This document shows, in pieces, positions 17,610-31,292 of a stretch of DNA of 43,217 bases. The DNA comes from Herpetosiphon giganteus (lineage in GTDB: Bacteria; Chloroflexota; Chloroflexia; Chloroflexales; Herpetosiphonaceae). The stretch lies in NCBI RefSeq assembly GCF_016907925.1, contig NZ_JAFBCZ010000043.1, positions 1 to 43,217 on the forward strand, given 5' to 3'. Position 1 is the first letter of the stretch. Every line of letters starts with the position of its first letter. A model generated the notes under the pieces. It was given only the letters and a program-made list of their open reading frames with translations. It did not search any database and was not told the origin of the DNA. A program made the position numbers and the translations under genes.

Positions 17610-17684
17610 AGTCGGATATAACTGTTTTTATTCAAGGCGCAGTATACGCAACAGGCTGCTATTTGTCAAACGCAGATTAATAGC

Positions 17685-17835
17685 GGACAGGGATCAGGAT
17701 TCAAGGATCAGTTGGTGGGGCTAGGAATCGGGTTTTAAGCAGAACAAAGAGCATACCGTGAGGGATCAGGATTCAAGAGCTAGGGATCAGGTTTTGGAAA
17801 TAGGAGCCTTCGTGCTCTTCGTAGATCGTTTTATA
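17685..17835. repeat. degenerate heptamer repeats between divergent genes
   Basis: Runs in a 7-bp phase are visible: GGGATCA, GGATTCA, AGGATCA near 17690, and again GGGATCA, GGATTCA, AGAGCTA, GGGATCA near 17762. A CTTCGTGCT-type nonamer stretch follows near 17810. The 17467-17940 gap therefore holds a plausible regulatory zone next to the siderophore operon and repeats in the middle; no gene is seen. Confidence 0.5.
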
Positions 17836-17940
17836 GCATTCCTGGTCAAAAAAATGAGGCCGATCGCATCTAAATCACTATACTATAATCGCTATGAGAC
17901 AAATGCCATTTTTTAGAAACATTTAATCCAGCGAGGGTGT

Positions 17941-20025
17941 ATGGGCAAAGTCGCTTGGATCACGTCAATTGATCAAGTACGGAGCAAGATAGCTGCAATT
18001 AAATGGCAGCAATATCGCCTATCAGGCAGCATTTTTATTGCAGTCTTTATGCTTCGCTGCTACAAGTTGGCAGCGCAAAGCCTCTGGTTTGATGAACTGA
18101 GCACATGGTGGGCTGTTTCACAGATGAGTTGGCTTGCTGGGTTTAAGCAACTTTGGGTTCCTCAAGCAGGCTATCCTTTATATCAACTCTTGCTTAAAAT
18201 ATGGATCTCACTGCTTGGCGACAATGAATGGGCATTACGCAGTTTTTCTGCCCTATCAGGCACGGTTGCTGTCATGATTATCACTCAAATCGGGCACCGA
18301 TTAAGCTTATCACGTTCATTCGTTTTCGGTTTAGTTGTGGTTGCACCATTGCCTTTATGGTATGCCCAAGAAAGCACAGCGTATAGTTTATTCTTTTGTA
18401 GCGCAGCCCTACTTGTGTTAAGCCTTATGCGGCTACTTGAAACACCAACAGCGCTTAAACTTGCGCAATCGCTTGGCGCTGGCTTGATCTGCCTGAGTAG
18501 TCATCGGCTTGGTAGCCTGCTAGGTATTGGTTGTCTTGTAGCAGGGTTGCTACGCTGGAGTCAACTCAATCGATTGCAAGCATTCAATAGACCAACAAGC
18601 AGCTATTGGCTAAACGGCGCGATCGTTGGGCTTAGTTTTTGCACCATCGGATTAATCGGCTATGGAGTCAAAATCTTTAGATTTGATAATCCCTTGGTTA
18701 GCCAATCGCATCGCCAAGCCACCCTTATTGATGCCCTTGAAATGACCATCTGGAGCTTTTCTACTAATCAAAATCCAGGGGCGTTTTCATGGGTTTGGCT
18801 GTTGCCAAGCCTTGGGCTTTTGAGTTGGGGTTTTATCAAACTACTACTGGATTGTCGAAACCATTGGCAAGCACAAACCTTGCTCTGTTTGATAATCGTG
18901 CCACTTGGCTTATTTGCAATCCTATTAGGTTGGACAAAACTCTATGAACCACGCTATATGCTTGGCCTCTACCCACTATGGATTCTCATCCTCGCGTATC
19001 CCTCGGTTAATCATTCAAAAAAGCAAAATAACGCTTCAGCAGTGGCTTTGAGCCTGCTTCAACGGGTGCAAGCACGCCAAATGCGCCTGCTGTACTCTAG
19101 CCTTGCGCTTGGTGTAATCGGGGTTAATATAGTGATGTTAATTGCACCAAAAACCGGATTATGGAGTAATAATCCAGTCCGCGAACAATATCGCGAAGCG
19201 ATTGACTATCTAGCCCATCAAATCCATCAAGATGATATTTTTATGGTACATCCAGGGTATTTAGGCTTGGCTTGGTTTTATTATGCCCCAAGGCTTAGCC
19301 CTGATCCGCTACCGCATCCATTAACATTTACTGAATTTGACCACCATACAACAACTGCTGCCAACATTGATGGTTATTTGCAAACATTTGGTCAGCAACG
19401 GTCTTTTTTGTTGATTGGGCCATTCCACGCCCGCACCATCGATCCATCTACAAACGATCAAGCATATGGAACAGTTGGCAGCTTTTATCAATCAGTCAAT
19501 TATTCATGGCAACCCTGTGGCCAACGCGATTTCTTAGGGGTTGCGATTCTTTGTAGCATCCAACCAGCCAGCAATCCAACCAATAGCAGTCTAGCAAGCC
19601 ATTCTCCCGTAACCTTCGGCCACCAGATCGTGTTACACAACTACCAGATAAAACCATTTGCAGGCACATTCAAGGCTGGCGGAAGCGTCCCAATCACACT
19701 CTTTTGGCAGTATAGCCAAGCGTTCTCCGAGCCTCACCAGTTAACGTTAGCACTGCGCCGAGTTGGATCTAACGATTTACAGGCATTTGAATGGGGCCTA
19801 TTGGCTCCAGCCGAATCACACAATCAACGATTGCTTGATCGACGGACAATCACTTTGTCTGATTATCGAAATGGGCAGCCATTAACCGCAGGTCGCTATG
19901 AAATTGTATTAATGATTCAACAAGCAACTATTGCACCTAATCCGATCTGGCTTACAGCCCAAAATGCCAATGGAATCCCAACGAACCAAGTCATTCTCGC
20001 GACGATCGATGTGAGTAATCCGTGA
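17941..20025 (+). CDS. GT-C family integral-membrane glycosyltransferase (GT39/ArnT-like)
   Basis: This 694-residue polytopic membrane protein probably uses a lipid-linked sugar to glycosylate a surface substrate. The first helix is followed by LWFDELSTWW (48-57); its acidic pair Asp51-Glu52 in the first outer loop is the GT-C catalytic signature. PLWYAQESTAYSL (138-150) matches the YxQEARxYSL pattern of the PMT/ArnT group, although Ala-Arg is replaced by Ser-Thr. About ten hydrophobic helices reach residue 410, then a 280-residue soluble outer domain follows, with a late beta-rich portion (VPITLFWQYSQAF). The ATG at 17941 follows GAGGGTGT closely. The stop overlaps the next gene by four bases (GTGA). 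The substrate is unknown. Confidence 0.8.
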   Translation: MGKVAWITSIDQVRSKIAAIKWQQYRLSGSIFIAVFMLRCYKLAAQSLWFDELSTWWAVSQMSWLAGFKQLWVPQAGYPLYQLLLKIWISLLGDNEWALRSFSALSGTVAVMIITQIGHRLSLSRSFVFGLVVVAPLPLWYAQESTAYSLFFCSAALLVLSLMRLLETPTALKLAQSLGAGLICLSSHRLGSLLGIGCLVAGLLRWSQLNRLQAFNRPTSSYWLNGAIVGLSFCTIGLIGYGVKIFRFDNPLVSQSHRQATLIDALEMTIWSFSTNQNPGAFSWVWLLPSLGLLSWGFIKLLLDCRNHWQAQTLLCLIIVPLGLFAILLGWTKLYEPRYMLGLYPLWILILAYPSVNHSKKQNNASAVALSLLQRVQARQMRLLYSSLALGVIGVNIVMLIAPKTGLWSNNPVREQYREAIDYLAHQIHQDDIFMVHPGYLGLAWFYYAPRLSPDPLPHPLTFTEFDHHTTTAANIDGYLQTFGQQRSFLLIGPFHARTIDPSTNDQAYGTVGSFYQSVNYSWQPCGQRDFLGVAILCSIQPASNPTNSSLASHSPVTFGHQIVLHNYQIKPFAGTFKAGGSVPITLFWQYSQAFSEPHQLTLALRRVGSNDLQAFEWGLLAPAESHNQRLLDRRTITLSDYRNGQPLTAGRYEIVLMIQQATIAPNPIWLTAQNANGIPTNQVILATIDVSNP

Positions 20026-21359
20026 TCAGAAAGAAGCTAAGGATGAAAAAAGTTTTTGCTAGTCTTGGGATTATGCTGCTCCTCCTTGGTATGCAAGCAC
20101 GATTTTCAAGCATACAAACAGCGCCAGATCTACCAATGCAGGCATTCAAACAACCAAACTTCTGTCAGCCAGCAACGCCATCAACATGTGGTCAATTACG
20201 GATCGATGGTTCAGGATTCTATGATCAGTATGGCCCGTGGGTCATGCATGGGGTGCAGTTTTTCCTGCCGCAATATGGGATTAATGGACGAACATTTTGG
20301 GATGCTGAATACAACCAAGCAACCCAAAATAGTTCGCTTGATTATTGGCTTGGAAGAAGCCAACAAGCGCTGTATGCCAATTTGCTGCGAATTTTTGTTG
20401 ATTTACCAGTCGCTACGAGCCAGCAGGTGGTTACCCCAACGAGCTATGCGACACTCTACGATTTTGCCAGTCGGGCGAATGCTCGTGGCATGCGGTTGGG
20501 CATATCAATCCACAATAGCGATGAATGGATATTAACCAGCATCCAACAACAGTGGATTGAAGGCATGCTTTCCTATTTTTTAGAACGCGATAGCCTAGCT
20601 ATGGTGGCGTATATTAACCTTGATAATGAAATCAATAATTATTGCGATCCACAGCATCGACGTGATTGCCTCGCAAATCCAAATCAGGCATATCTTAATC
20701 AAGCCATCGATTGGATTCGCCAAACCAGAGCGCTAATCAAAGCGCGTACACCGCAAATGCTTATCACTGTTGGAATGTCGACCGAACTAACAGCAATAGC
20801 ACCCAAAGGTGGGGTTGCTAATTATTTTCTGCGCGATCAGCATAGTGTTAGTTTGGCAAGTTTGATCGATTTTTTAGCACCGCACAATTATGGTGGCCGC
20901 GGTATTGAATTACTCTCCAGCATTCGTGAGTACGGCTATCGTGGCCCGGTTGTGCTCGAAGAATATGGCTTTCCAACCGATCCCTTTCCTGGCAGTGTCC
21001 ATTGGACAGAAGGGCCTGCCATTTGTCGAATTAATCCACTGCTTGCAGCCTGCTTTGAAACCGCCCCCTTCTATGTCGAAACCAATCTCAATGCCTTGCG
21101 CCAAGCTGATTATGCAGGAGGAGTTGCTTGGATGCTTGCTGATATTCAAGAAAAGGAACTTCCAACTGCGTGTGATGGGCATTCAATTCCATCAGATTTA
21201 TGGACTGGATTGTTTGCGGTTGGCGGCCAGTATTGCAATGGCGGAACGCTGACACACGAATTTGGTCGGCCTAAAGCAACCGCAACGCGCGTCTGCTTTT
21301 ATCACATAAATAATCTTGAACTTTGTTTGCAGCATGGAGCGTTTACAATCCAACCTTAA
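20022..21359 (+). CDS. secreted glycoside hydrolase, clan GH-A (GH5-like)
   Basis: This 445-residue exported protein has a basic N-terminus and hydrophobic core (about 8-24), then a TIM-barrel hydrolase. LRIDGSGFYDQYGPWVMHGVQFF (from 59) is the usual first strand. LDNEINNY places the likely acid/base at Glu203, and PVVLEEYGFP places the likely nucleophile at Glu314; APHNYGG near 287 fits a substrate-site loop. Family assignment within clan GH-A is uncertain. The GTG start at 20022 overlaps the glycosyltransferase stop (GTGA). An ATG at 20043 would also leave an intact signal peptide, but AAGG touches it. Coupling suggests the hydrolase trims or remodels the glycan made with its neighbour. Confidence 0.78.
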   Translation: MIRKKLRMKKVFASLGIMLLLLGMQARFSSIQTAPDLPMQAFKQPNFCQPATPSTCGQLRIDGSGFYDQYGPWVMHGVQFFLPQYGINGRTFWDAEYNQATQNSSLDYWLGRSQQALYANLLRIFVDLPVATSQQVVTPTSYATLYDFASRANARGMRLGISIHNSDEWILTSIQQQWIEGMLSYFLERDSLAMVAYINLDNEINNYCDPQHRRDCLANPNQAYLNQAIDWIRQTRALIKARTPQMLITVGMSTELTAIAPKGGVANYFLRDQHSVSLASLIDFLAPHNYGGRGIELLSSIREYGYRGPVVLEEYGFPTDPFPGSVHWTEGPAICRINPLLAACFETAPFYVETNLNALRQADYAGGVAWMLADIQEKELPTACDGHSIPSDLWTGLFAVGGQYCNGGTLTHEFGRPKATATRVCFYHINNLELCLQHGAFTIQP

Positions 21360-23238
21360 AAGCCGCCCAATAGGGCAGAAGTGTACTAATCAAGGCCATA
21401 CTTGCAAACAACCCTATAAAAACACTCAGCCCAACCAAGCCTTGGCGGCGGAGATGTGGTGGGAGCAAGCTACCCAATCCCACCACCAATATGATCACTG
21501 ATGGAACAACCGCAACAAACGTATAACGCCCAAAACTCCAGATAAACGCCCCTTGAATCGGTTGTAAATGCACTCGCAGAAAGGCCATACTCCAGCCCAA
21601 CCCTACAGCCCAGCAACCCATCCACCAAGCCAAACGCTGGATCTGATCGCGATCGCTTGGAATTCGCCTAGCGAATTGATAGCTTTGGCGGATAGCGCCG
21701 GCTAAACCAAACCCAACCAATAAGCCAATTGCCGTAAACCAGCCTGCTGAAACACTGATTTCCCCCCAGCCAAAGATGCCCCAAAAGCCTTGAAATAGGG
21801 CTAGCCCTTGGCGTGGATAGACAGCCCTAATCCATTGTGGGTTAACCGCTTTTTCCATCATGCGATCAATATTTTGAGCATTAACATGGCGCGCCGTTAT
21901 CCCACTAATCGCGCTTGGCACACGCGGAATTAGCAACTCTGCATCGCTATTGCGTAAAAAGTTTTGCGGCACGCCTTGGTCAAGCAGGGCTTTTTCAAGC
22001 TCGCCATCAGGAATGCTATCGTCGCCCGGAGCATAGCCTACAATCAGCGCCAGCGAATCATAAAAGACGGTAGCTTGACTCAATGGCCCACTTAAGCGCA
22101 CAGCAAGATAGGTGGTATTGGTTGGGATGCGTGTCGTAATTGAGACATATTTCCACGTTGTTCCAAAATAGATGCTATCTTGCACGACCGTTTGGTTATA
22201 TTGGAGGGCTGGTGTAAAGCCGAGGATTTCCTCGCGATCAGTGCGCATCCAGCCACTCAACGTCAGCACTTGACCAGCAAGCTCTTTTCGTAAGAACGGC
22301 GCAATCTCTTGTTCGAGCATTGGGCCAGGCCCATCAACAGGCCGAGCAAGCTGAAAAGCAGCAGCCCCGCGCCGAACAATAGTTGTCGATTGCAGCTCAA
22401 AGCCTGGTTCTGAATTCGCTGCAACGCTTGTCCAAGCAGCTAATTTACTAGGCAGAACCCGACTTGCCCCATAGCAACTAAGCCCCAAACCAACCGCCAA
22501 CGCAGCCCCGATCCGCCAACGAGAGGGCGGCGGCAAACTCATCAGCCAGCCTAACGGCACAATCAGGGCAAATGGAACAAGCATTCGTTTAACATTCCAT
22601 GCTAACAGCATCAAACCAAGCCCAACCAACAGCCAGCGCCAACTTGGCCGTTGGGCAAAACGTAGGCTCGCCGCAAATAGCCAAACTGCCACCAGATTGG
22701 CCAAAACATCGCTATTAACGCTACTCATCGTATCAGCAAGGGCTGGGTTAAAGGCCAAACTAGCAAGGATTGCCCACCGAACTTCACTAGCAAGTTGCAG
22801 CATGGAAACAAGCCGAATACCGCTATAAAAAAAGAGGGTTGCCAACAGCACACTAAGCATGCGAACAGCGCGTAATTGATCAACCACCGGTTTTGATTGG
22901 AAGGGCTGCGTGAGAGTTGCTGCAAGCCAATAATAGAACGCAGGATGGGTTCGTTCATTAAAGCCAAGCGATAATTCAGGATCATCAAGCTCAAACGGTT
23001 CAAGCTCAGTCCGCGGCGAGGCAAAAAAGCCCTCTTCAAGCATTGAAGCAGCAATTGCCTGCCGCAGGCCACGATCGTGTACATCTAGACTCGGGATTTG
23101 GCCAAGCTCGCGAATAAGTGCTATATACTCAAAATGGGTTGGCTCGTCATAGTGTTGCCAGGGTGGAGCAAGAATCGCATAGAGTAATACATGCCCCACC
23201 CAAAGCAGCAACATGAGCGCATCGATGTATTTACGCAT
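21343..23238 (-). CDS. DUF2142-type polytopic membrane protein, putative glycosyltransferase
   Basis: This 631-residue membrane protein has about ten to twelve hydrophobic helices. APPWQHYDEPTHFEY (24-38) in the first outer loop and NERTHPAFYYWLAA near residue 95 match the DUF2142 family, whose acidic pair (Asp31-Glu32) and layout recall GT-C glycosyltransferases. A large soluble insert (about 265-470) lies outside. The start is at 23238 with a poor ribosome-binding site, but it follows the 48-residue gene by seven bases, so re-initiation is likely. The 3' end overlaps the convergent hydrolase gene by 17 bases, leaving no room for a terminator. Confidence 0.75.
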   Translation of the reverse strand: MRKYIDALMLLLWVGHVLLYAILAPPWQHYDEPTHFEYIALIRELGQIPSLDVHDRGLRQAIAASMLEEGFFASPRTELEPFELDDPELSLGFNERTHPAFYYWLAATLTQPFQSKPVVDQLRAVRMLSVLLATLFFYSGIRLVSMLQLASEVRWAILASLAFNPALADTMSSVNSDVLANLVAVWLFAASLRFAQRPSWRWLLVGLGLMLLAWNVKRMLVPFALIVPLGWLMSLPPPSRWRIGAALAVGLGLSCYGASRVLPSKLAAWTSVAANSEPGFELQSTTIVRRGAAAFQLARPVDGPGPMLEQEIAPFLRKELAGQVLTLSGWMRTDREEILGFTPALQYNQTVVQDSIYFGTTWKYVSITTRIPTNTTYLAVRLSGPLSQATVFYDSLALIVGYAPGDDSIPDGELEKALLDQGVPQNFLRNSDAELLIPRVPSAISGITARHVNAQNIDRMMEKAVNPQWIRAVYPRQGLALFQGFWGIFGWGEISVSAGWFTAIGLLVGFGLAGAIRQSYQFARRIPSDRDQIQRLAWWMGCWAVGLGWSMAFLRVHLQPIQGAFIWSFGRYTFVAVVPSVIILVVGLGSLLPPHLRRQGLVGLSVFIGLFASMALISTLLPYWAAFKVGL

Positions 23239-23245
23239 AGCCAGT

Positions 23246-23392
23246 TTATTTAAATGAGATTGGTAGATAGGCGTAATAGCGACTCAAAACTGGTTCAATT
23301 GGAGTGACGAAAAAAACAATTGCCACCAAGATCGTTACCATCAACAATGAAAACCACCAGCGCCGGACAAATCGATCAATAATTGCAGCCAT
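23246..23392 (-). CDS. 48-residue single-pass membrane protein
   Basis: This short gene has an ATG at 23392 preceded by a full AAGGAG six bases upstream. The peptide starts MAAIIDRFVRRWW, then has one hydrophobic helix (about 14-30), then PIEPVLSRYYAYLPISFK. Arg/Lys before the helix predicts an inside N-terminus. It lies 45 bases after the CAP-domain gene and 7 bases before the DUF2142 gene, all co-directional. I do not recognise it; it may be a small partner of the membrane glycosyltransferase-like protein. Confidence 0.75.
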   Translation of the reverse strand: MAAIIDRFVRRWWFSLLMVTILVAIVFFVTPIEPVLSRYYAYLPISFK

Positions 23393-23437
23393 AGATTCTC
23401 CTTGCAATACCACCATTCACGCAATCCAAAGTTAAGC

Positions 23438-24817
23438 CTAGCGGCGACTGGTTGTAAATGTCCAACGGCTATCGAACGGGATATTCTCATAGCTTCCAGT
23501 AACCTGCACCGTAATTCGGCTGTTTGCTGGCAACGGATTGGTCGGCAACAAAAGTACCCCTTTATGCCCAGCAGGCAGATCCGTGCTTGCAGAATGGGCA
23601 ATTTGAACTCCATTGCTCGTTTCAATTTTCGTGCTGCTGATAATTGGATTGTCCCCAAAGTAGCGCCAACTTAGGGTAATTGGATACTTGCTTGGCGGAA
23701 TAAAGCGCTCAGTATCAGCAGGATAGCGAATTGGCCAACCAGCGTACGTTTCATCTGCATCCATTGCGGTGCGTGAAAGCACATCAAGGCCTGCTGCCGA
23801 GGTTCCATTTTCAGCCCGATAGAAACCAAAGCCAAAAACCGGTGTTGTTGGGTAGAGCAACCACAGTCGATGCCCAGGTGAGGACATCCAACCCTCAACC
23901 GAATCAACTTCCGTCCAGCCTGCGCCACTGCCAAGCCAAGCGTTGCCATTGCTGCCACAAATTTGGCCAGCAGGCGAGGCCCATGGCAAACTTGGGTCTT
24001 GATCATGGGTCAGGTGACGATTTTCGGCCATATAGCGGGCATGCTGAAAACAATTGTCATTGAGCACCGTATCTTCGGCAACTGGCGCTAAACCTGCATT
24101 GGCCCGATAGAAATTGACAGCCTCAAGCCAGCCTTGGGGTTGAGGCGGCGGTGGCCCCAAAATTTCACTGCCGAGCAAGCCAAGCAAAACCTTAAATTGA
24201 TCAGCATTATTGGGATGCCACTCAAAACGAGCACGCTCAAACCACTGGGTCACTACCGTATCGCCACTGGCATTGGTTTCCATTTTTGGTTCAGTCAGTG
24301 GCAAGCCAAACAGTTGCAACGAGCGCTCATAGGCATTTAAGCCAGCAATGGTGAGACCATGGTTCTCCCAGTAGCTGCGAAAGCCCAGGCCTGCTTGTTG
24401 GTCGCAAAGATTATGCCCAGTTTGTTCAAACCATAAGCATCCATCACGTGGGCCTGCTTCACGGCCTTCGGCAAATGGGTCACGGCCAAGTTGCTGCAAG
24501 CGATCTTTGCCAAGCAGCCCCAGCAAAATCACATACGGCGTTCCTGCGTTCTCAGGATGCCATTCCAACCGATTGCGCTCAAACCATTGGGTAAGATACT
24601 GTTGGCCAGTATCAGCATTGGTTTCGTTATCAGCCCATGTAATTGGGTATCCAAACACCGCAAGTCCACCGTTGGTTTCCCAATAGGCGTTAAAACTTGC
24701 ATCAATACAATAGGCCGATTGTTCTGAGGGGAAGCATTGTTCCCGGGCAGCAACTGCCTGAATTGGCCACAAGCTTAAACTAAACAAGCAGATTAATCCC
24801 CAGCGTAGCTTCTGCAT
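23438..24817 (-). CDS. secreted CAP (SCP/PR1) domain protein with two wall-type repeats
   Basis: This 459-residue exported protein has a signal peptide (about 1-23, cleaved near AVAA). Two copies of an approximately 80-residue repeat follow (about 27-105 and 125-215), each with an F..YW start, GYPI or GLPL in the middle, QWFER.R.EWHP.NA, and a VLLGLLG end. A CAP domain (about 230-360) begins EAVNFYRANAGLAPV and includes the NRHLTHD and SSPGHRLWLL motifs. A beta-rich C-terminal domain with the ITLSWRYFGDNP pattern (about 375-459) resembles a Big-type fold. The AAGGAG site eight bases before the ATG is good. The same repeat occurs in the adjacent transpeptidase, suggesting a shared envelope target. 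The exact biochemical activity of bacterial CAP domains is usually unknown. Confidence 0.85.
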   Translation of the reverse strand: MQKLRWGLICLFSLSLWPIQAVAAREQCFPSEQSAYCIDASFNAYWETNGGLAVFGYPITWADNETNADTGQQYLTQWFERNRLEWHPENAGTPYVILLGLLGKDRLQQLGRDPFAEGREAGPRDGCLWFEQTGHNLCDQQAGLGFRSYWENHGLTIAGLNAYERSLQLFGLPLTEPKMETNASGDTVVTQWFERARFEWHPNNADQFKVLLGLLGSEILGPPPPQPQGWLEAVNFYRANAGLAPVAEDTVLNDNCFQHARYMAENRHLTHDQDPSLPWASPAGQICGSNGNAWLGSGAGWTEVDSVEGWMSSPGHRLWLLYPTTPVFGFGFYRAENGTSAAGLDVLSRTAMDADETYAGWPIRYPADTERFIPPSKYPITLSWRYFGDNPIISSTKIETSNGVQIAHSASTDLPAGHKGVLLLPTNPLPANSRITVQVTGSYENIPFDSRWTFTTSRR

Positions 24818-24848
24818 TATCTACTCCTTCTGATCAATCCATAACGAT

Positions 24849-25895
24849 TTATGGATCAACGATTACCGCTGTGCCAGTGCGATCAGTCCAGTTATAGAGC
24901 CATTCAGCTTCGGCTAAAGCAAGGTTGATACAGCCATGCGAGCGACGAGTGCCAAAATCTGCATGCCAATAGGTGCCATGAATCGCCCAATCGCGGTAGA
25001 AAAATTGGACAAATGGCACAGCGCTCGTATTCCACGATTCACCACGCTCGCTGCTTTGCATATCTTTTTCCCACCATTTTTGATACACCAGAAAGCTGCC
25101 ACTGACGGTCTCAAAGCCTGGTTTGCCAATCGCAATTGGGGCAGTCAAGACCTTCAAATCGGCTTCGTAGGCTTCAAGCGTATAGTTCGTCAACGAGACC
25201 TTGATCGTTTGGGGCCAAAGCTGAGGCGACCACGTAGGCACCGCTTGACGCTGTGGCACTGCGTCGAGCATCAGGCCATTGAGCTGAGCCACTTGGCGGC
25301 CAACCGCACTCGGAATAATTTCATATAACGGATCAAGATCGATCGCCTTAAGTTGCGCATAGGCTAGCCACAATGGTTTTAAGGCTTCTGGATGATATTC
25401 TAAGCGGCCTCGTTCAAACCATTGAACAAGCATTCCAGCTTCATTGGTTGGCTCTGCAATCGGATAGCCAAGGAATTGAAGCCCTGCAGAACGCTGCCAA
25501 AATTCGCGAAATTCACCCTGTAGCGTATGGCCAGTTTCAGGAATAGCGATCACACTTGGATCAGCGCTGACCGCAACCGGCGGCGTAGCCATGCCTAGCT
25601 CGCGACCTAAAAGCCCAAGCAATACCTGATTGTGCTCAGCATGAAATTCAAGCCGAGCGCGTTCAAAATATTGCACAGGGCGATTATGCTCAATAATTTG
25701 TTCCGTAATTGGATAGCCAAGCCGTGTTACTTGACCATGCGCACGCCAGTAGCTCAAGAATCCAAACTGATCATCAACATGATGGCCAGTTTGCGCAAAA
25801 TAAACAGCTTGAACTGATGGTTCCACCGCATAAGCCGAGCGATTAATCAAGAGCAGTGCGATCAGGAGCAGCAAACGAGGAATCAACAAGCGCAT
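24849..25895 (-). CDS. L,D-transpeptidase (YkuD) with two wall-type repeats
   Basis: This exported peptidoglycan-crosslinking or anchoring enzyme has 348 residues. After a signal peptide (1-23) come two repeats (about 29-105 and 119-185), each ending QYFERARLEFH or QWFERGRLEYHPE and with a GYPI core, like those of the neighbouring CAP protein. The YkuD catalytic domain (about 225-348) carries HGTYWHADFGTRRSHGC (306-322) with nucleophile Cys322. The ribosome-binding site is a perfect AGGAGG six bases before the ATG. The start follows the preceding gene by nine bases. The family usually forms 3-3 crosslinks or attaches proteins to the wall. The repeats may guide it to its substrate, which is inference. 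Confidence 0.9.
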   Translation of the reverse strand: MRLLIPRLLLLIALLLINRSAYAVEPSVQAVYFAQTGHHVDDQFGFLSYWRAHGQVTRLGYPITEQIIEHNRPVQYFERARLEFHAEHNQVLLGLLGRELGMATPPVAVSADPSVIAIPETGHTLQGEFREFWQRSAGLQFLGYPIAEPTNEAGMLVQWFERGRLEYHPEALKPLWLAYAQLKAIDLDPLYEIIPSAVGRQVAQLNGLMLDAVPQRQAVPTWSPQLWPQTIKVSLTNYTLEAYEADLKVLTAPIAIGKPGFETVSGSFLVYQKWWEKDMQSSERGESWNTSAVPFVQFFYRDWAIHGTYWHADFGTRRSHGCINLALAEAEWLYNWTDRTGTAVIVDP

Positions 25896-25904
25896 TGGAA
25901 CCTC

Positions 25905-27290
25905 CTATGGGCGTAGCATTCGTTGAAGTTCGTGATCATAAATCTGGCCCAATGGAATGAGGAAGGTGCCTTGCTGGGCATTCCAAGCGATCATAGCACG
26001 TTCTGTCAACACAATAATATAGCCATCAATCCCATTTTGATCAACACGTTGATTGGGAATGTTGCGCAGCACATACTGTTGCATCGTTGCTTGCGACAGC
26101 CAGATTTCTTGGGTCAAAACGTTGCCAAATACCGCAAGAAAATGTTGCTCAGAGCCAAAACTTGCAATAACCCACTCGCGAATACCATTAACCAAAACAG
26201 TCTTTTCCCATGGGCGAATGGTTCCGGTGGGCAAGATTCCTGCTGCTTCCAAATCGTAGCCCATCCGCGTGCCCAATAAAGCGAGGGTAATTGGCCCAGC
26301 CTCAACCCGTTCATAATGAACATAGGTTCCTGGTAAAACAACTTTGGTTAGCTGTTGATCGTGCCAGCGAAAGGGTTGGCCAAGCACTTCGCCCCATTGC
26401 AGATAGTCGCGGCCAAAGGCCTTGCGCGCAGCGTTCAAATACGGCCCGCCAAGCCGATTCGCCACATAGGGCGCGGTTCGGGTAGCAAATTGATACCGCT
26501 GATGATCAACGATGCTGCCCGCTTCAGCACTGACCACAATCACGCTATTAAACCCCCGCAACCAGTCTGCAAAGGTATCCAGCGTAAGCGCAAATGGATA
26601 ACCAACTAAACCATCAAGAATAATGACTTGCTGCGGCGTATTTGGGTCGACAAAGACTGCGACCTCGTGATAGGGATAGAGCATCGTAACGGTTTCATTG
26701 GTTTCGGGAACAACAATGTTCCGTGCATTGCGCCTATACTCACGGGGGGTAATCCAAGCATGGGCGAATGAAGCATGTGGATTTTTCAGCAGCTGATCAA
26801 CGATACTTTGGGCGAAACTATAATCACGCTGATCTGGTTCGGCCATGAGCAGCAGTGCGTTATAGCCAAGCGCTTGATAGACTCCAATAAAGGCAGCGGC
26901 GGCAGCACCAAGATTATCGATCGAGAAGCGCTGATCTGAGCCATTTGGGCCTTTTAAGGTATAAAAACCTTCATAATAATCGCGTGGGCTTTGGGAAATC
27001 ATGGTGCGTGCAGTCGCATAGGCTGCGTCACCAGCTCCCCCAATATTTTGAATGCCATTTCTGAGCGCAATAAAATCACAATTACTATCGTTGCCTTGCA
27101 ATCGAATATCATATGTTTGCTGCATTGCCGATGGCGCTATACCAGGTGGTTGAAAGGTCGGGCCATAAATCGCTTGGCGTTTCACAAGGCTCAGATCGTT
27201 CAATTGAGCGGAATCAGGTTGTGGTGTTGCAGAAATATTCATGGTAATGGCAAGCCAGCAGATCAAGAATGCAGAAAATCGCATGAACAT
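25905..27290 (-). CDS. secreted protein with a C39-like (papain-fold) candidate domain
   Basis: This 461-residue exported protein has a signal peptide at about 1-21. The central part resembles the C39_2 papain-like fold: NDSNCDFIALRNGIQNIG (Cys71 as nucleophile), PHASFAHAWITP, then YHEVAVFVDP (His208) and VIILDGLVGYPFALTLDTFADWLRGFNSVIVVS with candidate Asp215 or Asp226. The C-terminal 190 residues are beta-rich and include KVVLPGTYVHYERVEAGP and repeated W-containing strands. Catalytic competence is not proven by sequence alone. The ATG at 27290 has AGGAGG five bases upstream. It sits nine bases before the L,D-transpeptidase gene, so a role in processing envelope proteins in that operon is plausible. 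Confidence 0.7.
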   Translation of the reverse strand: MFMRFSAFLICWLAITMNISATPQPDSAQLNDLSLVKRQAIYGPTFQPPGIAPSAMQQTYDIRLQGNDSNCDFIALRNGIQNIGGAGDAAYATARTMISQSPRDYYEGFYTLKGPNGSDQRFSIDNLGAAAAAFIGVYQALGYNALLLMAEPDQRDYSFAQSIVDQLLKNPHASFAHAWITPREYRRNARNIVVPETNETVTMLYPYHEVAVFVDPNTPQQVIILDGLVGYPFALTLDTFADWLRGFNSVIVVSAEAGSIVDHQRYQFATRTAPYVANRLGGPYLNAARKAFGRDYLQWGEVLGQPFRWHDQQLTKVVLPGTYVHYERVEAGPITLALLGTRMGYDLEAAGILPTGTIRPWEKTVLVNGIREWVIASFGSEQHFLAVFGNVLTQEIWLSQATMQQYVLRNIPNQRVDQNGIDGYIIVLTERAMIAWNAQQGTFLIPLGQIYDHELQRMLRP

Positions 27291-27343
27291 TGCACCCTCC
27301 TAGCGTAGTGATTCCAAAGCTCAGATCAGCAATGGAGAGTAAT

Positions 27344-27391
27344 GCAGCACAGCGCTGAATCAAGCAGCAGCTACCTTCAGCACTGTGCTGC
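27344..27391. other. 16-bp inverted repeat between two cistrons
   Basis: The arms GCAGCACAGCGCTGAA (27344-27359) and TTCAGCACTGTGCTGC (27376-27391) pair with one exception, which becomes a G-U pair in the minus-strand transcript. No U-tract follows, so a classical terminator is unlikely. An mRNA-stabilising or processing hairpin between the CAP gene and the C39-like gene is possible. Confidence 0.7.
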
Positions 27392-27400
27392 GAGCACTAT

Positions 27401-28384
27401 TTACTGGCGAGCAAACACTTGAGTCCAATAGTGAAAATATGGGCCATTAGCACATGTGCCATCATCAAAGCAAATATTGCCTTGATCGTTGGCTTGATAG
27501 TAGTAGCCAATCCCGGTTTGGGTAAAGTTGCAGTTTAAAATATTGGCCCGATGACCAGGACTATTCATCCAACTATTAACAGCTGCCTGTGGAGAGTTAT
27601 TACCAGCAGCAATATTCTCTCCCCATCTCACCCAAGGATAGCCTTGAGCAGTGATCCGTTGAGGAACAGTTGAGCCATTCGAACCAGTATGGCTAAAGAA
27701 GTTGTTAATCGCCATATCTTGGCTATGCAGCCAAGCAGCAGTTCGCAAGCGCGAATCAACCGTGAGTGCGCCACAACCAGCTTGAGCACGCTCTTGATTG
27801 ACCAAGGTTAGTACTTGGGCCTCAAAATCAGCTGGATTTGGGGTTGCCGTCGGTGTACGGGTTGGCGTGCGGGTACTCGTCGCGGTTGCCGTCGGCGTGC
27901 TGGTTGGCGTGCGGGTACTCGTCGCGGTTGCCGTTGGCGGTAGGTTGGTCGCAGTTACCGTCGGCGTGCGGGTTGGCGTGCGGGTATTCGTCGCAGTTGC
28001 CGTTGGCGTGCTGGTTGGCGTGTTGGTATTCGTTGCAGTTGCCAAGGGTGTGCGAGTTGGCGTTTGGGTGTTGGTCGCGGTTGGCGTAGGGTAGACTGGT
28101 GGCTGCGAATAGCCCAAGGTAAGCGGTAGCCAAACTCCTGGTAGGACTGTGGCCGCAGGAATGATAAAGCCACCGTTCAAGGTATAGACCCCACCATTCA
28201 GCTGGCCTGCATCTGGTTGGCCGATGCTACCGCTGAGCGCATACGCCCCACCCTGCGCACTACCACCACCAGCATCGATCGAAAACCAACGCAGATCATA
28301 ATTGGATGGTGCGGCGCGCAAAGAACTATAGCCAAGCAGCATTACGCCAATCAAACAGCATTTAAGCCAATGTTTCCGTAGCAT
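27401..28384 (-). CDS. secreted CAP domain protein on a Thr/Pro stalk
   Basis: This 327-residue exported protein has a signal peptide at 1-25. An N-terminal segment with [16 protein letters not shown] and [10 protein letters not shown] motifs comes first. Next is a Thr/Pro/Ala stalk (about 100-190) made of 14-residue [14 protein letters not shown]-like units, then a CAP domain (about 195-327) starting [19 protein letters not shown] and ending in the CAP signature HYWTQVF. A frame from 28390 begins with GTG too near AAAGGA; the ATG at 28384 is eight bases from it and is preferred. It lies 20 bases after the Gly-rich repeat protein gene and 110 bases before the C39-like gene. The stalk probably holds the CAP domain away from the cell surface. 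Confidence 0.87.
27835..28090. repeat. 42-bp tandem repeat in the CAP protein stalk
   Basis: The DNA of the Thr/Pro stalk consists of about six imperfect 42-bp units (core GTTGGCGTGCGGGT on the plus strand). Near-identical adjacent units at 27860-27930 indicate recent duplication, so stalk length may vary between strains. The repeat creates long open frames on the other strand that are not genes. Confidence 0.75.
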
Positions 28385-28404
28385 AATCACAATCCTTTAC
28401 ATCA

Positions 28405-30249
28405 CTAACGGCGTTCCAATTTACGCTGGAGTTCTTGCTCCAATTCCTGTGCTGGTGCCGCCGGAATATCGATGGTAGGAATGCTTGGTGGGTTCTTGAT
28501 CGTGCTGCGATAGCGGGCATCAACTCCTTTGGCTGCTTGTGCAGAGCTTTCAGGAGCCAAATAGGTTCCTTGCTCGGTTAATGGCTTGGTTACTTCTACT
28601 TGCAGCGGGTTGGCAACCGCATAAGGATCATGGCGAATGCCAGTAACTTGCCATGAAACTTTACTGCCAGCGATGCCGCCAGCAATCGTAAATTGGTTTT
28701 GCTTAATTTCGGCAGCAATATATAAACCTGGGCCGGGGGCATTGAGTGCAGTAAGTTGATAGCGGAAATCGCCATTCAGCGCTTCAAACCAATCAGGCAG
28801 GTTAACCACAGCTTTGCCATCGCGGTCAAGCACGGCTACGCCATCATAAATGGTCTTCATTGCATCGCTTTCGACCGAAGCATGTTGCAAATATTGGTTT
28901 GCAGGATCAAGTGGGTGATCGATGCGGAAATTTTTAACCGCAGCATTAATTGCCCCAGTCACATTAACTGAGCCATAGAACATGCCAGCATAGCCACTTT
29001 GGCTGCTCCCAACAATCCCATTGCCACTAATCGCAATCCCTTCAACCCCGCTGCCAGTGCCTGACCCATTTTGCTGGCCCTTAACAGCGGGATTACTGCT
29101 ACCAGTAAAGCCCCAAATGCTCGGATAATTACCGCCGCTTACCCCTATAATTCCACTGCCATTTTCGCTTTGGCCCCAAACTCCAGTATTATCGGTGCTA
29201 AATCCACGCATACCGCCATTCGGGCCAAAACCTTGCACCCCTACTTCTACCCCACTCACACCATTAACTCCATAATTATTTGAGCTATATCCATAAACGC
29301 CATTGCCTGAGGTGCTAAAGCCAAAAATCCCATTACTTGAGCCACTTGAACCAGAAACCCCACTACTTGAGCTACTCGAACCATAAACTCCATTACCGGT
29401 GCTACTATTGCCAGAAACCCCAGTCCCTGAGCTTGTGTTGCCAACCACACCATAACCACTGGTACTTAACCCCCAAACGCCATAGGCACCTGTTCCACCA
29501 TTAGCAATCCCATGAATGCCATTACCACCAGCATGGGTTGATTCACCAACAACCCCATCATAGCCAGAGCTAAGGCCATGCACCCCAATCCCAGTGCCAT
29601 TGTTGCGGCCATAGACCGCACTAGCAGATGTTGAGCTTGAGCCGGTGGTGCCATAAACCCCGTAGGTTTCATTGCTTTGGCTTGTGCCTTCGCCATAAAC
29701 CCCACTTGTCGCCCCGTATCCTACTAAGCCATTGCCGGACGTGCCAAGATTACTCGCAGTAAAGATTGAATTAACTGGTTCGGCGCTACGCACAACCGCG
29801 CCTGGCTTGAGGCTCAATGCATAGGGCGCTGCTGTAATCTTCTGACGGGGATTAAGCGCGGTATAGCTGCCAGTACCTGCCGGGCAGCGAACAGCAATAC
29901 CCAGCCAGCGGTCACCACCAGTAAACGCTTCGCCAAAAGGGCCACTTACGCCAGCATCAAGCTCAACACTAAACCGACCCTTTTGCACATTCACATTCAA
30001 TGCTGTCTGGGTCGAGCCAAGCTGGCTGCCGCCACTGGCAACACTATAGAGACTAAATTGAAAATCACACACATTATTAATCGCAGTGCCACTGCTAACC
30101 AACTCGCCTTGATAGGTAAATGTGCCAGCATACAACGTGGATGGCCCCGCTGGATTATTCGCCGATTGAGCGGTTGTCTGTTGGGTCGTGATTCCACCAA
30201 GCACAAAAATAACGAAGCCAAGCACGCCATATCCAATCCTTGAACGCAT
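28405..30249 (-). CDS. secreted Gly-rich repeat protein (beta-helix-like)
   Basis: This 614-residue exported protein has a signal peptide at about 1-28. The N-terminal domain (about 35-150) has the pattern TFTYQGELVSSGT, FQFSLYS, GRFSVELD, RWLGIAVR, and PRQKITAAPYAL, seen in many bacterial surface proteins. The middle (about 170-420) is built of some 20 short units of the type GxGVxGxSsxG or GVYGxS, suggesting a repetitive beta-solenoid. The C-terminal domain begins KNFRIDHPLDPANQYLQHAS and includes WFEALNGDFRYQLTAL, a conserved module in secreted proteins of unknown role; the last residues are a Glu/Arg helix. The ATG at 30249 has a perfect AGGAGG six bases upstream; a frame from 30276 is not preferred. 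It is likely an extracellular structural component. Confidence 0.85.
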   Translation of the reverse strand: MRSRIGYGVLGFVIFVLGGITTQQTTAQSANNPAGPSTLYAGTFTYQGELVSSGTAINNVCDFQFSLYSVASGGSQLGSTQTALNVNVQKGRFSVELDAGVSGPFGEAFTGGDRWLGIAVRCPAGTGSYTALNPRQKITAAPYALSLKPGAVVRSAEPVNSIFTASNLGTSGNGLVGYGATSGVYGEGTSQSNETYGVYGTTGSSSTSASAVYGRNNGTGIGVHGLSSGYDGVVGESTHAGGNGIHGIANGGTGAYGVWGLSTSGYGVVGNTSSGTGVSGNSSTGNGVYGSSSSSSGVSGSSGSSNGIFGFSTSGNGVYGYSSNNYGVNGVSGVEVGVQGFGPNGGMRGFSTDNTGVWGQSENGSGIIGVSGGNYPSIWGFTGSSNPAVKGQQNGSGTGSGVEGIAISGNGIVGSSQSGYAGMFYGSVNVTGAINAAVKNFRIDHPLDPANQYLQHASVESDAMKTIYDGVAVLDRDGKAVVNLPDWFEALNGDFRYQLTALNAPGPGLYIAAEIKQNQFTIAGGIAGSKVSWQVTGIRHDPYAVANPLQVEVTKPLTEQGTYLAPESSAQAAKGVDARYRSTIKNPPSIPTIDIPAAPAQELEQELQRKLERR

Positions 30250-30315
30250 AGCGACCTCCTCATGGTGTAGAATCATTGATGCACGAGAACCTTCCCCACT
30301 CAGATCTCACTCTAA

Positions 30316-30618
30316 TTAGGCGCAGCCAGCACCGGAAATAGTGCTATTGCCACTAACCGAGACTGTCGAGTAACTTCCAGCTACGCCTGAATACACCACC
30401 GTTGACATTCCACCACCAAGGTTTATATATTTAATAACAGGGCTAGCCGCCAAGCGATTGAATGTCACTTGCACGCTGCCGCTCCCACCAAGACTAACCC
30501 AAGCGCCATTGCCACATGAGGCGTAAATATTGGCACTGCCTGCGGCCCAAGTTGTGGTAGGCAGCATAGCTAAAACCAATAAACCTAAGCCAACCAATCG
30601 AATCAAACTGCTTTTCAT
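30316..30618 (-). CDS. small secreted protein, about 100 aa
   Basis: I do not recognise this protein. It has a signal peptide (about 1-25, cleavage near TWA-AG). The mature part of about 75 residues is rich in Gly, Ser and Val, beta-strand-like, with two Cys that could form a disulfide (ASCGNG and the C-terminal GAGCA). AGGAGG lies one base before an ATG at 30621 and four bases before the ATG at 30618; the second is preferred. It is the first gene of the co-directional secreted-protein run and lies 66 bases before the Gly-rich repeat protein, so it may be a structural subunit. Confidence 0.7.
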   Translation of the reverse strand: MKSSLIRLVGLGLLVLAMLPTTTWAAGSANIYASCGNGAWVSLGGSGSVQVTFNRLAASPVIKYINLGGGMSTVVYSGVAGSYSTVSVSGNSTISGAGCA

Positions 30619-30854
30619 CATTCCTCCTAGAACAATAACCAAAGTTTCATAGCTAATATGATGCGAAAGGCTTAGATTTTTTCAGTCGATACATAGCTTA
30701 AATATAGTGCGCCTGTCTGGACCGACTATAACAAAATAGGCCTCGATGGCATAGGCACAATCCATGGGGAGCTTAACACTCTTCATGAGGGGCTTTGGCT
30801 GATTAAAAAGACTTGATAGCTTTTTCAAGCAGGTTTATAAAAATTTGGTGAAAG

Positions 30855-30938
30855 GGGGTCGGGAGTCAGGAGTCGGAGGTCAGGGGTCAGGGGTCAGGGG
30901 TCAGGAGTCGGAGGTCAGGGGTCGGGGGTCAGGGGTCA
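30855..30938. repeat. heptamer array, 12 units of GGGGTCA type
   Basis: Twelve units in register alternate among GGGGTCA, GGGGTCG, GGAGTCA, GGAGTCG and GAGGTCA. Shorter runs of the same unit occur at 38751-38771 and, complemented, near 39043-39067. The 30619-31292 gap also holds a family A element and 9-bp repeats; the promoter of the secreted-protein operon should lie in 30619-30850 but I could not fix it. Confidence 0.85.
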
Positions 30939-30984
30939 GGCTATTGGCTATGTGTACTGGTTCATAGCATTAACAACCGCCTGC

Positions 30985-31112
30985 TCCCCTCACCCCAACC
31001 CCGCTCCCGTGGCGCGGGCGCGGGGCTTTAATGTCATGGTTTTTGTGCAATGTATCGGTAAAACGGGGACTCCCCTCGCCCGCGTTTAGTGGGAGCGGGA
31101 CTAGGGATTGGG
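30985..31112. repeat. family A palindromic element, copy 3
   Basis: The element starts CCCCTCACCCCAACCCCGC and ends AGCGGGACTAGGGATTGGGC; the right end is more diverged than in other copies. The inner blocks GCTCCCGTGGCGCGGGCGC and CTCCCCTCGCCCGCG match the family. Confidence 0.7.
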
Positions 31113-31135
31113 CTATAGTCTGATGGCTATAGGCT

Positions 31136-31280
31136 ATCGGGGATTTGTTGAAATGGCAATGGTCTGATAGCCCAAAGCCTAGAGCCAAAAGCCACATCCC
31201 CTTCGCGCGCTTCGCGTCCTTCGCGGTTTCGTCGCTTCGTGCTCTTCGTGGATCATGGATTGTGATCCACGAAGAACTCT
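31136..31280. repeat. heptamer (AGCCNNN) and nonamer (CTTCGNGNN) repeats
   Basis: At about 31165-31195 the units AGCCCAA, AGCCTAG, AGCCAAA, AGCCACA stay in a 7-bp phase. At 31200-31250 9-bp CTTCGCGNN and CTTCGTGNN units follow. The segment lies just downstream of the aldo/keto reductase gene. Confidence 0.55.
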
Positions 31281-31292
31281 AACCCCCAAGCT

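Follow-up and report, generated by a model that had tools for sequence, protein, structure and literature searches.

The closest known counterpart of the module that marks the locus analysed here is the LGFP repeat (PF08310), which in the C-terminal domain of the Corynebacterium glutamicum mycoloyltransferase MytA (PDB 6sx4/6swz) forms a run of five units of about 54 residues, and the portion of PMC11299179 available to us describes MytA LGFP domains as interacting with cell-wall components in pull-downs. The module in Herpetosiphon giganteus likewise has a G-x-P core and is an add-on to secreted enzymes, but its repeats are longer (73-96 residues) and paired, carry a conserved Q-x-F-E-R-x-R-x-E-x-H motif, lie mostly under the Pfam cut-off and belong to another phylum, the Chloroflexota. 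The other known systems are enzymatic. YkuD L,D-transpeptidases (PF03734) share the catalytic domain and SHGC motif of one protein of the locus, g5, which differs from them in its N-terminal twin LGFP-like module; CAP, or YkwD-like, proteins (PF00188) are matched over the cut-off by both g3 and g6, the former having in addition a Thr/Pro stalk and the latter a twin LGFP-like module; and the C39-like and PCAT peptidase domains, with the papain-fold phytochelatin synthase Alr0975, resemble g4 in having Q, C, H and D in that order and in being its top structural neighbours, whereas g4 has no Pfam match, is a secreted protein of 461 aa and continues for some 200 further C-terminal residues with no assigned fold.

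Chloroflexota have no LPS outer membrane and an ornithine-type wall, and our literature search found little on how they hold proteins on that wall. The features of the window, the whole stretch of 43,217 nucleotides that was analysed, are as follows.

17684-31280, no strand: accessory island of 13.6 kb between conserved flanks (from flank alignments), containing g1-g8 and n1-n2
30316-30618, minus strand: g1, small secreted protein, 100 aa, unassigned to a family (ribosome site AGGAGG)
28405-30249, minus strand: g2, 614 aa, secreted and rich in Gly/Ser, with repeats of 10-residue period; N- and C-terminal parts unnamed
27401-28384, minus strand: g3, 327 aa, CAP protein with a stalk rich in Thr/Pro (PF00188, 87 bits, cut-off 21.1)
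27344-27391, minus strand: hairpin in the g3-g4 gap, 16-base arms, 94% complementary
25905-27290, minus strand: g4, candidate secreted C39-like (papain-fold) cysteine peptidase (invariant residues, structural neighbours)
24849-25895, minus strand: g5, L,D-transpeptidase bearing a twin LGFP-like module at its N terminus (PF03734, 76.3 bits, cut-off 23.4)
25335-25814, minus strand: twin LGFP-like module of g5, aa 28-187 (repeat HMM 78.5 + 78.4 bits; PF08310 21.5 bits, cut-off 22)
24858-25211, minus strand: YkuD catalytic domain of g5 (PF03734)
23438-24817, minus strand: g6, CAP protein bearing a twin LGFP-like module at its N terminus (PF00188, 60.1 bits, cut-off 21.1)
24158-24748, minus strand: twin LGFP-like module of g6, aa 24-220 (repeat HMM 111 + 114 bits; AlphaFold2 model)
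23246-23392, minus strand: g7, single-pass membrane protein, 48 aa, part of another cassette (relative in genome G020)
21343-23238, minus strand: g8, polytopic membrane protein, distantly DUF2142-like, part of the other cassette (PF09913, 12.1 bits, under the cut-off of 30.1)
20022-21359, plus strand: n1, glycoside-hydrolase-like secreted protein whose gene converges on g8 (weak Pfam GH53 match, 11.9 bits)
17941-20025, plus strand: n2, PMT-type (GT-C-like) membrane protein (PF13231, 21.8 bits, cut-off 26.1)

The twin module was modelled with AlphaFold2 on the g6 sequence (pLDDT 92.9, pTM 0.87), using a 15-row alignment (A4) from which the transpeptidase repeats L041 and L043 (20-30 bits) and eight single-repeat viral proteins had been left out. 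VIA-align gave the MytA LGFP domain as the best PDB match, two MytA entries reaching Z values of 6.2 and 5.9, below the secure fold level of 8 and for the first repeat alone, and the next unrelated structure scoring 3.0; a module repeat and the MytA domain superimposed with an rmsd of 2.2 Å over 66 residues at 20% identity. MytA surfaced only upon realigning the Foldseek candidates: Foldseek alone found nothing in the PDB at E <= 0.001 and did not have MytA in its top 50, and a profile-based sequence search of the PDB with the module returned nothing significant. A viral library gave two matches at E < 0.001, one of them Lysin A of Gordonia phage Fosterous. With PF08310 itself (cut-off 22 bits), one of the 10 modules scanned singly, out of 22, passed at 24.2 bits, and none of the 22 full-length proteins did; matches up to E 1 were found in eight of the 22 modules, g5 lying just under the cut-off as listed and g6 giving no match up to that limit. 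Both repeats of all 22 modules keep the G-x-P core without exception (columns 41/43 and 167/169 of the alignment), usually in the form [FL]-G-[YLF]-P. On the model and its MytA resemblance, the twin module of g5 and g6 is probably of a wall-binding type.

According to the repeat HMM, at least 22 proteins encoded by the genome have this module, with two repeats in each. Eight of the 20 lying outside the window have a Pfam domain over the cut-off, namely YkuD, S8, GH5 (two), CAP, 5'-nucleotidase, VanW and sortase. The module profile matched 97 of 251 Chloroflexota genomes, that of H. giganteus included, a count for which 13 candidates were scored per genome and which may include partial modules. 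All eight single-repeat viral proteins carry the repeat after enzyme domains and are amidases of endolysin type; the two twin-module viral proteins that were scanned showed no lysis domain. As judged from these profile matches, relatives of the module appear to be widespread in Chloroflexota and to occur also on viral lysis enzymes. Our search of the open-access literature found no treatment of LGFP together with Chloroflexota, and LGFP with Chloroflexi only in one hot-spring phage survey, which mentions LGFP a single time. A probable wall-binding module of this frequency would offer a handle on the Chloroflexota surface proteome, and the repeat-bearing viral amidases suggest ready-made binding probes.

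The earlier note on this DNA had labelled g5 an L,D-transpeptidase and g3 and g6 CAP proteins, and Pfam bore out all three labels; its descriptions of g1, g2 and g7 also matched what we found. We identify g5 as an L,D-transpeptidase from its PF03734 domain, which has the SHGC motif at residues 319-322; it is an additional copy beside the C30 enzyme, counterparts of which are present in all six Herpetosiphon genomes. For g1 no Pfam or NCBIfam family came over the cut-off. The repeats of g2 consist of G-[VILA]-x-G tetrads frequently spaced by 10 residues, and partial relatives of this protein were found at E <= 1e-10 in 15 of 31 genomes, that of H. giganteus included.

The reading of g4 as C39-like and a possible protease stood in part. 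Residues Q65, C71, H208 and D226, in the order oxyanion Gln, Cys, His, Asp, are invariant in all seven homologues, and we take them to correspond to the C39 catalytic residues. The top structural neighbours of the model are C39-type domains, the model having a pLDDT of 51.9, with values below 50 around C71. No Pfam or NCBIfam family, C39 included, matched g4 up to E 1, and a PDB search by sequence profile gave nothing significant. The residue set and the modelled, probably papain-like fold make g4 a probable C39-like cysteine peptidase. Its structural neighbours include some toxins or effectors.

The earlier note had looked to conserved synteny in Chloroflexota, and this was not what we found: g1-g6 recur in one of five congeners, and g4 occurs in four of 60 genomes, that of H. 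giganteus included. In a 301-genome Chloroflexota sample g4 was found in two Herpetosiphon genomes alone, a count that gives no estimate of its distribution, since G015 and G055, positive in the 60-genome search, presumably lie outside that sample. In four of seven loci (three of six lineages when the two Herpetosiphon are counted once) the g4 gene has a transpeptidase gene immediately downstream, and the neighbourhood is missing in the other three loci; outside the Herpetosiphon loci the recurring element is the g4-transpeptidase pair alone, without g1-g3. The transpeptidases next to g4 genes group together with a support of 0.845 in an unrooted tree of seven sequences.

Across the congeners the left flank of the island aligns at 88-93% and the right flank at 81-93%. 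In four of the five other Herpetosiphon genomes (G001-G004) these flanks are only 0.14-2.4 kb apart and the g1-g6 block is absent at the site. The fifth, H. llansteffanensis, has the island with a different left part; g1-g6 are present in the same order at 85-93% identity (g1 86%, g2 91%, g6 93%), and g7-g8 were not found. The g1-g6 block is a patchily distributed accessory block, presumably gained or kept as an island. A mobile-element origin of the island was considered and rejected on a tRNA search of the window and two collection searches, with g4 against plasmids and with the g6 module against phages, all of which came back empty. One of the four congeners without the block at this site is probably H. 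aurantiacus, a species that the part of PMC3368417 available to us describes as a gliding organism with a sheath, albeit a disputed one, and it is therefore unlikely that the block is needed for gliding or the sheath.

As the earlier note had claimed, g1-g8 form a row of eight co-directional genes on the minus strand, from 30618 down to 21343. With the best supported starts (30249 for g2, behind AGGAGG, and 28384 for g3), the sequence gives gaps of 66, 20, 110, 9, 31, 45 and 7 bases from g1 to g8, so that six of the seven are under 70 as described, the exception being g3-g4. The AGGAGG-type ribosome sites were confirmed upstream of g1, g2, g4 and g5, with the variants AAGGAG at g6 and g7 and AAAGGA at g3; no clear site was visible upstream of g8. 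A promoter and terminator scan gave no more sites than shuffled sequence. The hairpin in the 110-base gap has a folding z of -3.8, the best of 500 shuffles being equally stable, and H. llansteffanensis has a hairpin of different sequence at the equivalent place (z = -4.8); the feature is possibly a terminator or processing site. The tie of g1-g3 to g4-g6 is one of neighbourhood in these two sister species alone, with the hairpin between.

The last two genes belong elsewhere. With the convergent pair n1-n2 they make up a cassette of four genes, which is found again in rearranged form in G020, a genome of the same taxonomic order: g7 has a 45% match over 44 aa (E 2.8e-7) beside relatives of n2, n1 and g8, the remaining genomes of the 60-genome search giving nothing else below 0.002; the g8 relative is at 42%, that of n1 at 55% and convergent with it, and that of n2 at 32% and in a single frame with the relative of n1. 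From these matches g7-g8 with n1-n2 appear to form a separate membrane/glycan cassette, downstream of g1-g6 in the same direction. The DUF2142 label given to g8 did not hold, its score being under the Pfam cut-off.

We consider it rather likely that g1-g6 are an accessory, wall-anchored block of secreted, wall-associated proteins that remodels the envelope, with g7-g8 standing apart beside n1-n2. The twin repeats would hold g5 and g6 on peptidoglycan or its glycopolymer; g5 would introduce L,D bonds into peptidoglycan of the ornithine type, either as cross-links or as links to a secreted partner; g4 would cleave a secreted peptide or protein at the same place; and the CAP proteins g3 and g6, with the repeat protein g2, would act at the surface, so that the wall of this lineage would be remodelled or decorated. 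A more specific arrangement, to which we give little credence, is a sortase-like display by two enzymes, in which g4 would trim a partner (g1, g2 or g3), the wall-parked g5 would join it to the ornithine-type peptidoglycan, and the twin repeat would be a general Chloroflexota surface anchor.

The main competitor, which has a minor though real chance of being right, is that g1-g3 form one wall-protein unit and g4-g6 another, the two being unrelated, separate in their roles and together in the island by chance. The hairpin-bearing gap, conserved in place with differing sequences, and the recurrence of the g4-transpeptidase pair without g1-g3 outside Herpetosiphon speak for such a division, but the order of g1-g6 is identical in both species that have them, and the promoter scan found sites no more often than in shuffles. 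That the block is instead a set of secreted wolf-pack weapons, g4 being the killing peptidase and g5 and g6 protecting or modifying walls, seems unlikely. Herpetosiphon is a wolf-pack predator for which secreted hydrolases are thought important, with hydrolase gene sets differing among species (PMC6210107, in the part available), and the patchiness of the island and the toxins or effectors among the g4 neighbours would suit this; the twin module, however, is also found on a sortase, a VanW protein and a 5'-nucleotidase, and no gene resembling an immunity gene was noticed in passing. The original proposal, one operon of all eight genes for the assembly and attachment of an extracellular structure such as a sheath, fibre or gliding coat, draws on the tight co-directional spacing, the 10-residue repeats of g2 and the combination of a transpeptidase with probable wall-binding modules. 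It now looks improbable, being weakened by the strong g3-g4 hairpin in both species, by the absence of g7-g8 from the sister species and their grouping with n1-n2 in G020, and by the lack of the block at the site in four of five congeners. What survives of it within the remodelling block that we favour is a set of secreted, wall-associated proteins, indicated by the modules on g5 and g6, the g5 transpeptidase and the peptidase features of g4; a sheath, fibre or gliding coat found no support.

Compared with H. llansteffanensis, g1-g6 have dN/dS values of 0.10-0.21 (0.15 for g1), which indicates purifying selection. The value for the AKR was 0.058.

The row of eight minus-strand genes that the earlier note had described was confirmed, running from 30618 to 21343 on contig 43 of a 6.16-Mb genome, with intergenic gaps from g1 to g8, between best-supported starts and stops, of 66, 20, 110, 9, 31, 45 and 7 bases. 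Pfam upheld the labels CAP (g3 and g6) and YkuD L,D-transpeptidase (g5), and gave no family above cut-off for g1 (small, secreted), g2 (Gly/Ser-rich repeat), g4 (C39-like peptidase candidate) or g7 (48-residue membrane protein); the polytopic membrane protein g8, previously assigned to DUF2142, scored 12.1 bits, far under the cut-off of 30.1.

DNA comparison with five Herpetosiphon congeners defined an island at 17,683-31,281, containing the following features.

17941-21359, plus strand: n2 (PMT-type membrane protein) and n1 (glycoside-hydrolase-like secreted protein), convergent with g8
21343-23392, minus strand: g8 and g7, with n1 and g8 overlapping by 17 bases
27344-27391, between the minus-strand genes g3 and g4: hairpin occupying much of the gap

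In four congeners (G001-G004) both island flanks lie 0.14 to 2.4 kb from each other, and the stretches taken at the site held none of the island genes. The island of the fifth, H. llansteffanensis CA052B, is common to the window only over 23,429-30,919, that is, g1-g6 and about 300 bases upstream; the likeness ends 9 bases past the g6 stop codon, beyond which H. llansteffanensis has an SNF2-type helicase gene (read from the sequence) and other genes. The eight genes do not form one conserved unit: this island keeps g1-g6, and g7-g8 go with n1-n2. A tree of 9 kb of flank placed the window and H. llansteffanensis as sisters (support 1.0), so that a single gain, or losses in the other congeners, would fit. 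Between these two, dN/dS was 0.15, 0.21, 0.20, 0.19, 0.12 and 0.10 for g1 to g6, respectively, compared with 0.058 for a flanking aldo-keto-reductase-like gene (name read from the sequence).

The second grouping is a four-gene membrane/glycan cassette of n2-n1, g8 and g7, which recurs in another genome from this order, G020. There, relatives of g7 (45% identity over 44 residues), n2 (32%), n1 (55%) and g8 (41%) all lie inside 5.2 kb, and n2 and n1 share one frame and converge with g8, as in the window; the g7 relative differs in lying on the opposite side of n2. This co-occurrence, together with the lack of any further g7 match below E 0.002 in the 60 genomes searched (own included), groups g7-g8 with n1-n2. 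Relatives of g8 alone are commoner (35 of the 60), and in genome G016 one occurs with neither n1 nor n2 nearby.

Within g1-g6, the same g3-g4 gap of H. llansteffanensis also holds a hairpin, of other sequence. Both folded more stably than shuffles (z -3.8 in the window, where the best of 500 shuffles was as stable, and z -4.8 in H. llansteffanensis), and neither hairpin has a clear T run. Retention of a hairpin despite sequence change points to a role at the RNA level, for example in termination or processing, and its position may hint at separate or unequal expression of g1-g3 and g4-g6.

Few genomes have a g4 relative: 4 of the 60 searched, counting the window's own. A scan of the named genome collection, with two peptide patterns only, gave six loci, three of them in genomes already among those four. 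Q65, C71, H208 and D226 are common to seven g4 sequences. Although the g4 model is poor (pLDDT 51.9), a C39-type domain came first both by Foldseek and by realignment, closely followed by phytochelatin synthase and other papain-fold enzymes, with unrelated folds mixed into the Foldseek list. As for g4 and the TRANSPEPTIDASE, the gene directly downstream of g4 encodes an L,D-transpeptidase bearing LGFP-like repeats in four of seven loci (window, L039, L041 and L043; repeats weak in the last two), and does not in L040, L042 and L044. The linked transpeptidases group together in an unrooted tree (n=7, support 0.845), and the link may thus be one inherited event. The L043 contig is filed as Candidatus Gracilibacteria, and the pair was otherwise seen here only in Chloroflexota; its MAG label may be wrong. 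At L044:8596-10086, a second C39-like protein (read from sequence) is divergent from the g4 homologue, with overlapping reading frames.

The twin LGFP-like module of g5 and g6 gave an AlphaFold2 model from a 15-row alignment (pLDDT 92.9, pTM 0.87). Among realigned Foldseek candidates, the C-terminal domain of the C. glutamicum mycoloyltransferase MytA came first at Z 6.2 and 5.9 (next 3.0), although the tool warns that values below 8, this pair included, can reflect merely a common arrangement. Given this gap, 20% identity to MytA LGFP with a shared G-x-P core, and scores close to threshold against PF08310, we take the module to be a probable distant relative of LGFP that falls outside the Pfam family. 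According to PMC11299179, MytA provides the sole reported experimental structure that includes an LGFP domain, and pull-downs showed its LGFP domains to interact with peptidoglycan-arabinogalactan.

The twin repeats would hold g5 and g6 on the wall, the best-supported step of the proposal; g5 would form L,D bonds there and g4 would cut a secreted substrate, both reactions being assumed from family. In this group, L-ornithine replaces diaminopimelate in the peptidoglycan, and an LPS outer membrane is lacking (PMC3368417 and PMC6210107). A sheath or gliding role is unsupported, because the block is missing at this site in four of five congeners; a species-specific coat could still be its role. 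The locus of the earlier note is real and modestly novel, its boundary having been drawn too wide and its function read too specifically.

The module reaches far past this locus, and the wider interest rests there: its profile matched 97 of 251 genomes of the phylum at E <= 1e-8. A viral structure library gave two matches at E < 0.001, one a Gordonia phage lysin A. Independently of this, viral contigs scanned with the module gave 16 loci. Twin modules occur in eight, some of which may be bacterial or prophage contigs; two of these proteins were scanned, and no lysis domain was found. The other eight (L068-L075) encode endolysin-type amidases with one repeat, C-terminal or nearly so (about 60 residues follow it in L071 and L072). 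All eight match PHROG endolysins and have an amidase domain (in L069 slightly under the Pfam cut-off), some with a glucosaminidase domain in addition, and the repeat follows the enzyme domains, at the usual site of the endolysin wall-binding part. In a mycobacteriophage paper (PMC3314691), LGFP is described as unusual in endolysins and is labelled 'Cell wall binding?'.

With g6 as query, six Herpetosiphon genomes gave 31-36 matches each, most of those listed aligning to its first 230 residues. From the regions of listed matches, the window's own genome has at least 22 module proteins (20 besides g5 and g6). All 22 have a 73-96-residue repeat in duplicate, and in their alignment one G, one P, one Q and one E are invariant in both copies. 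Outside the window, eight of the 20 carry a Pfam domain above cut-off (YkuD, subtilase, GH5 twice, CAP, 5'-nucleotidase, VanW and sortase), two a sub-cut-off domain (Excalibur and lamin tail), and ten none at E <= 0.01. At L050:5516-11676, three tandem paralogues of 636-650 residues carry the twin module N-terminally, have no Pfam domain at E <= 0.01 and lie close to a GH5-like protein with the module at its C-terminus. The sortase (L057:3096-4160) has the twin module at its N-terminus, so that one protein may combine anchoring by sortase with anchoring by the repeat.
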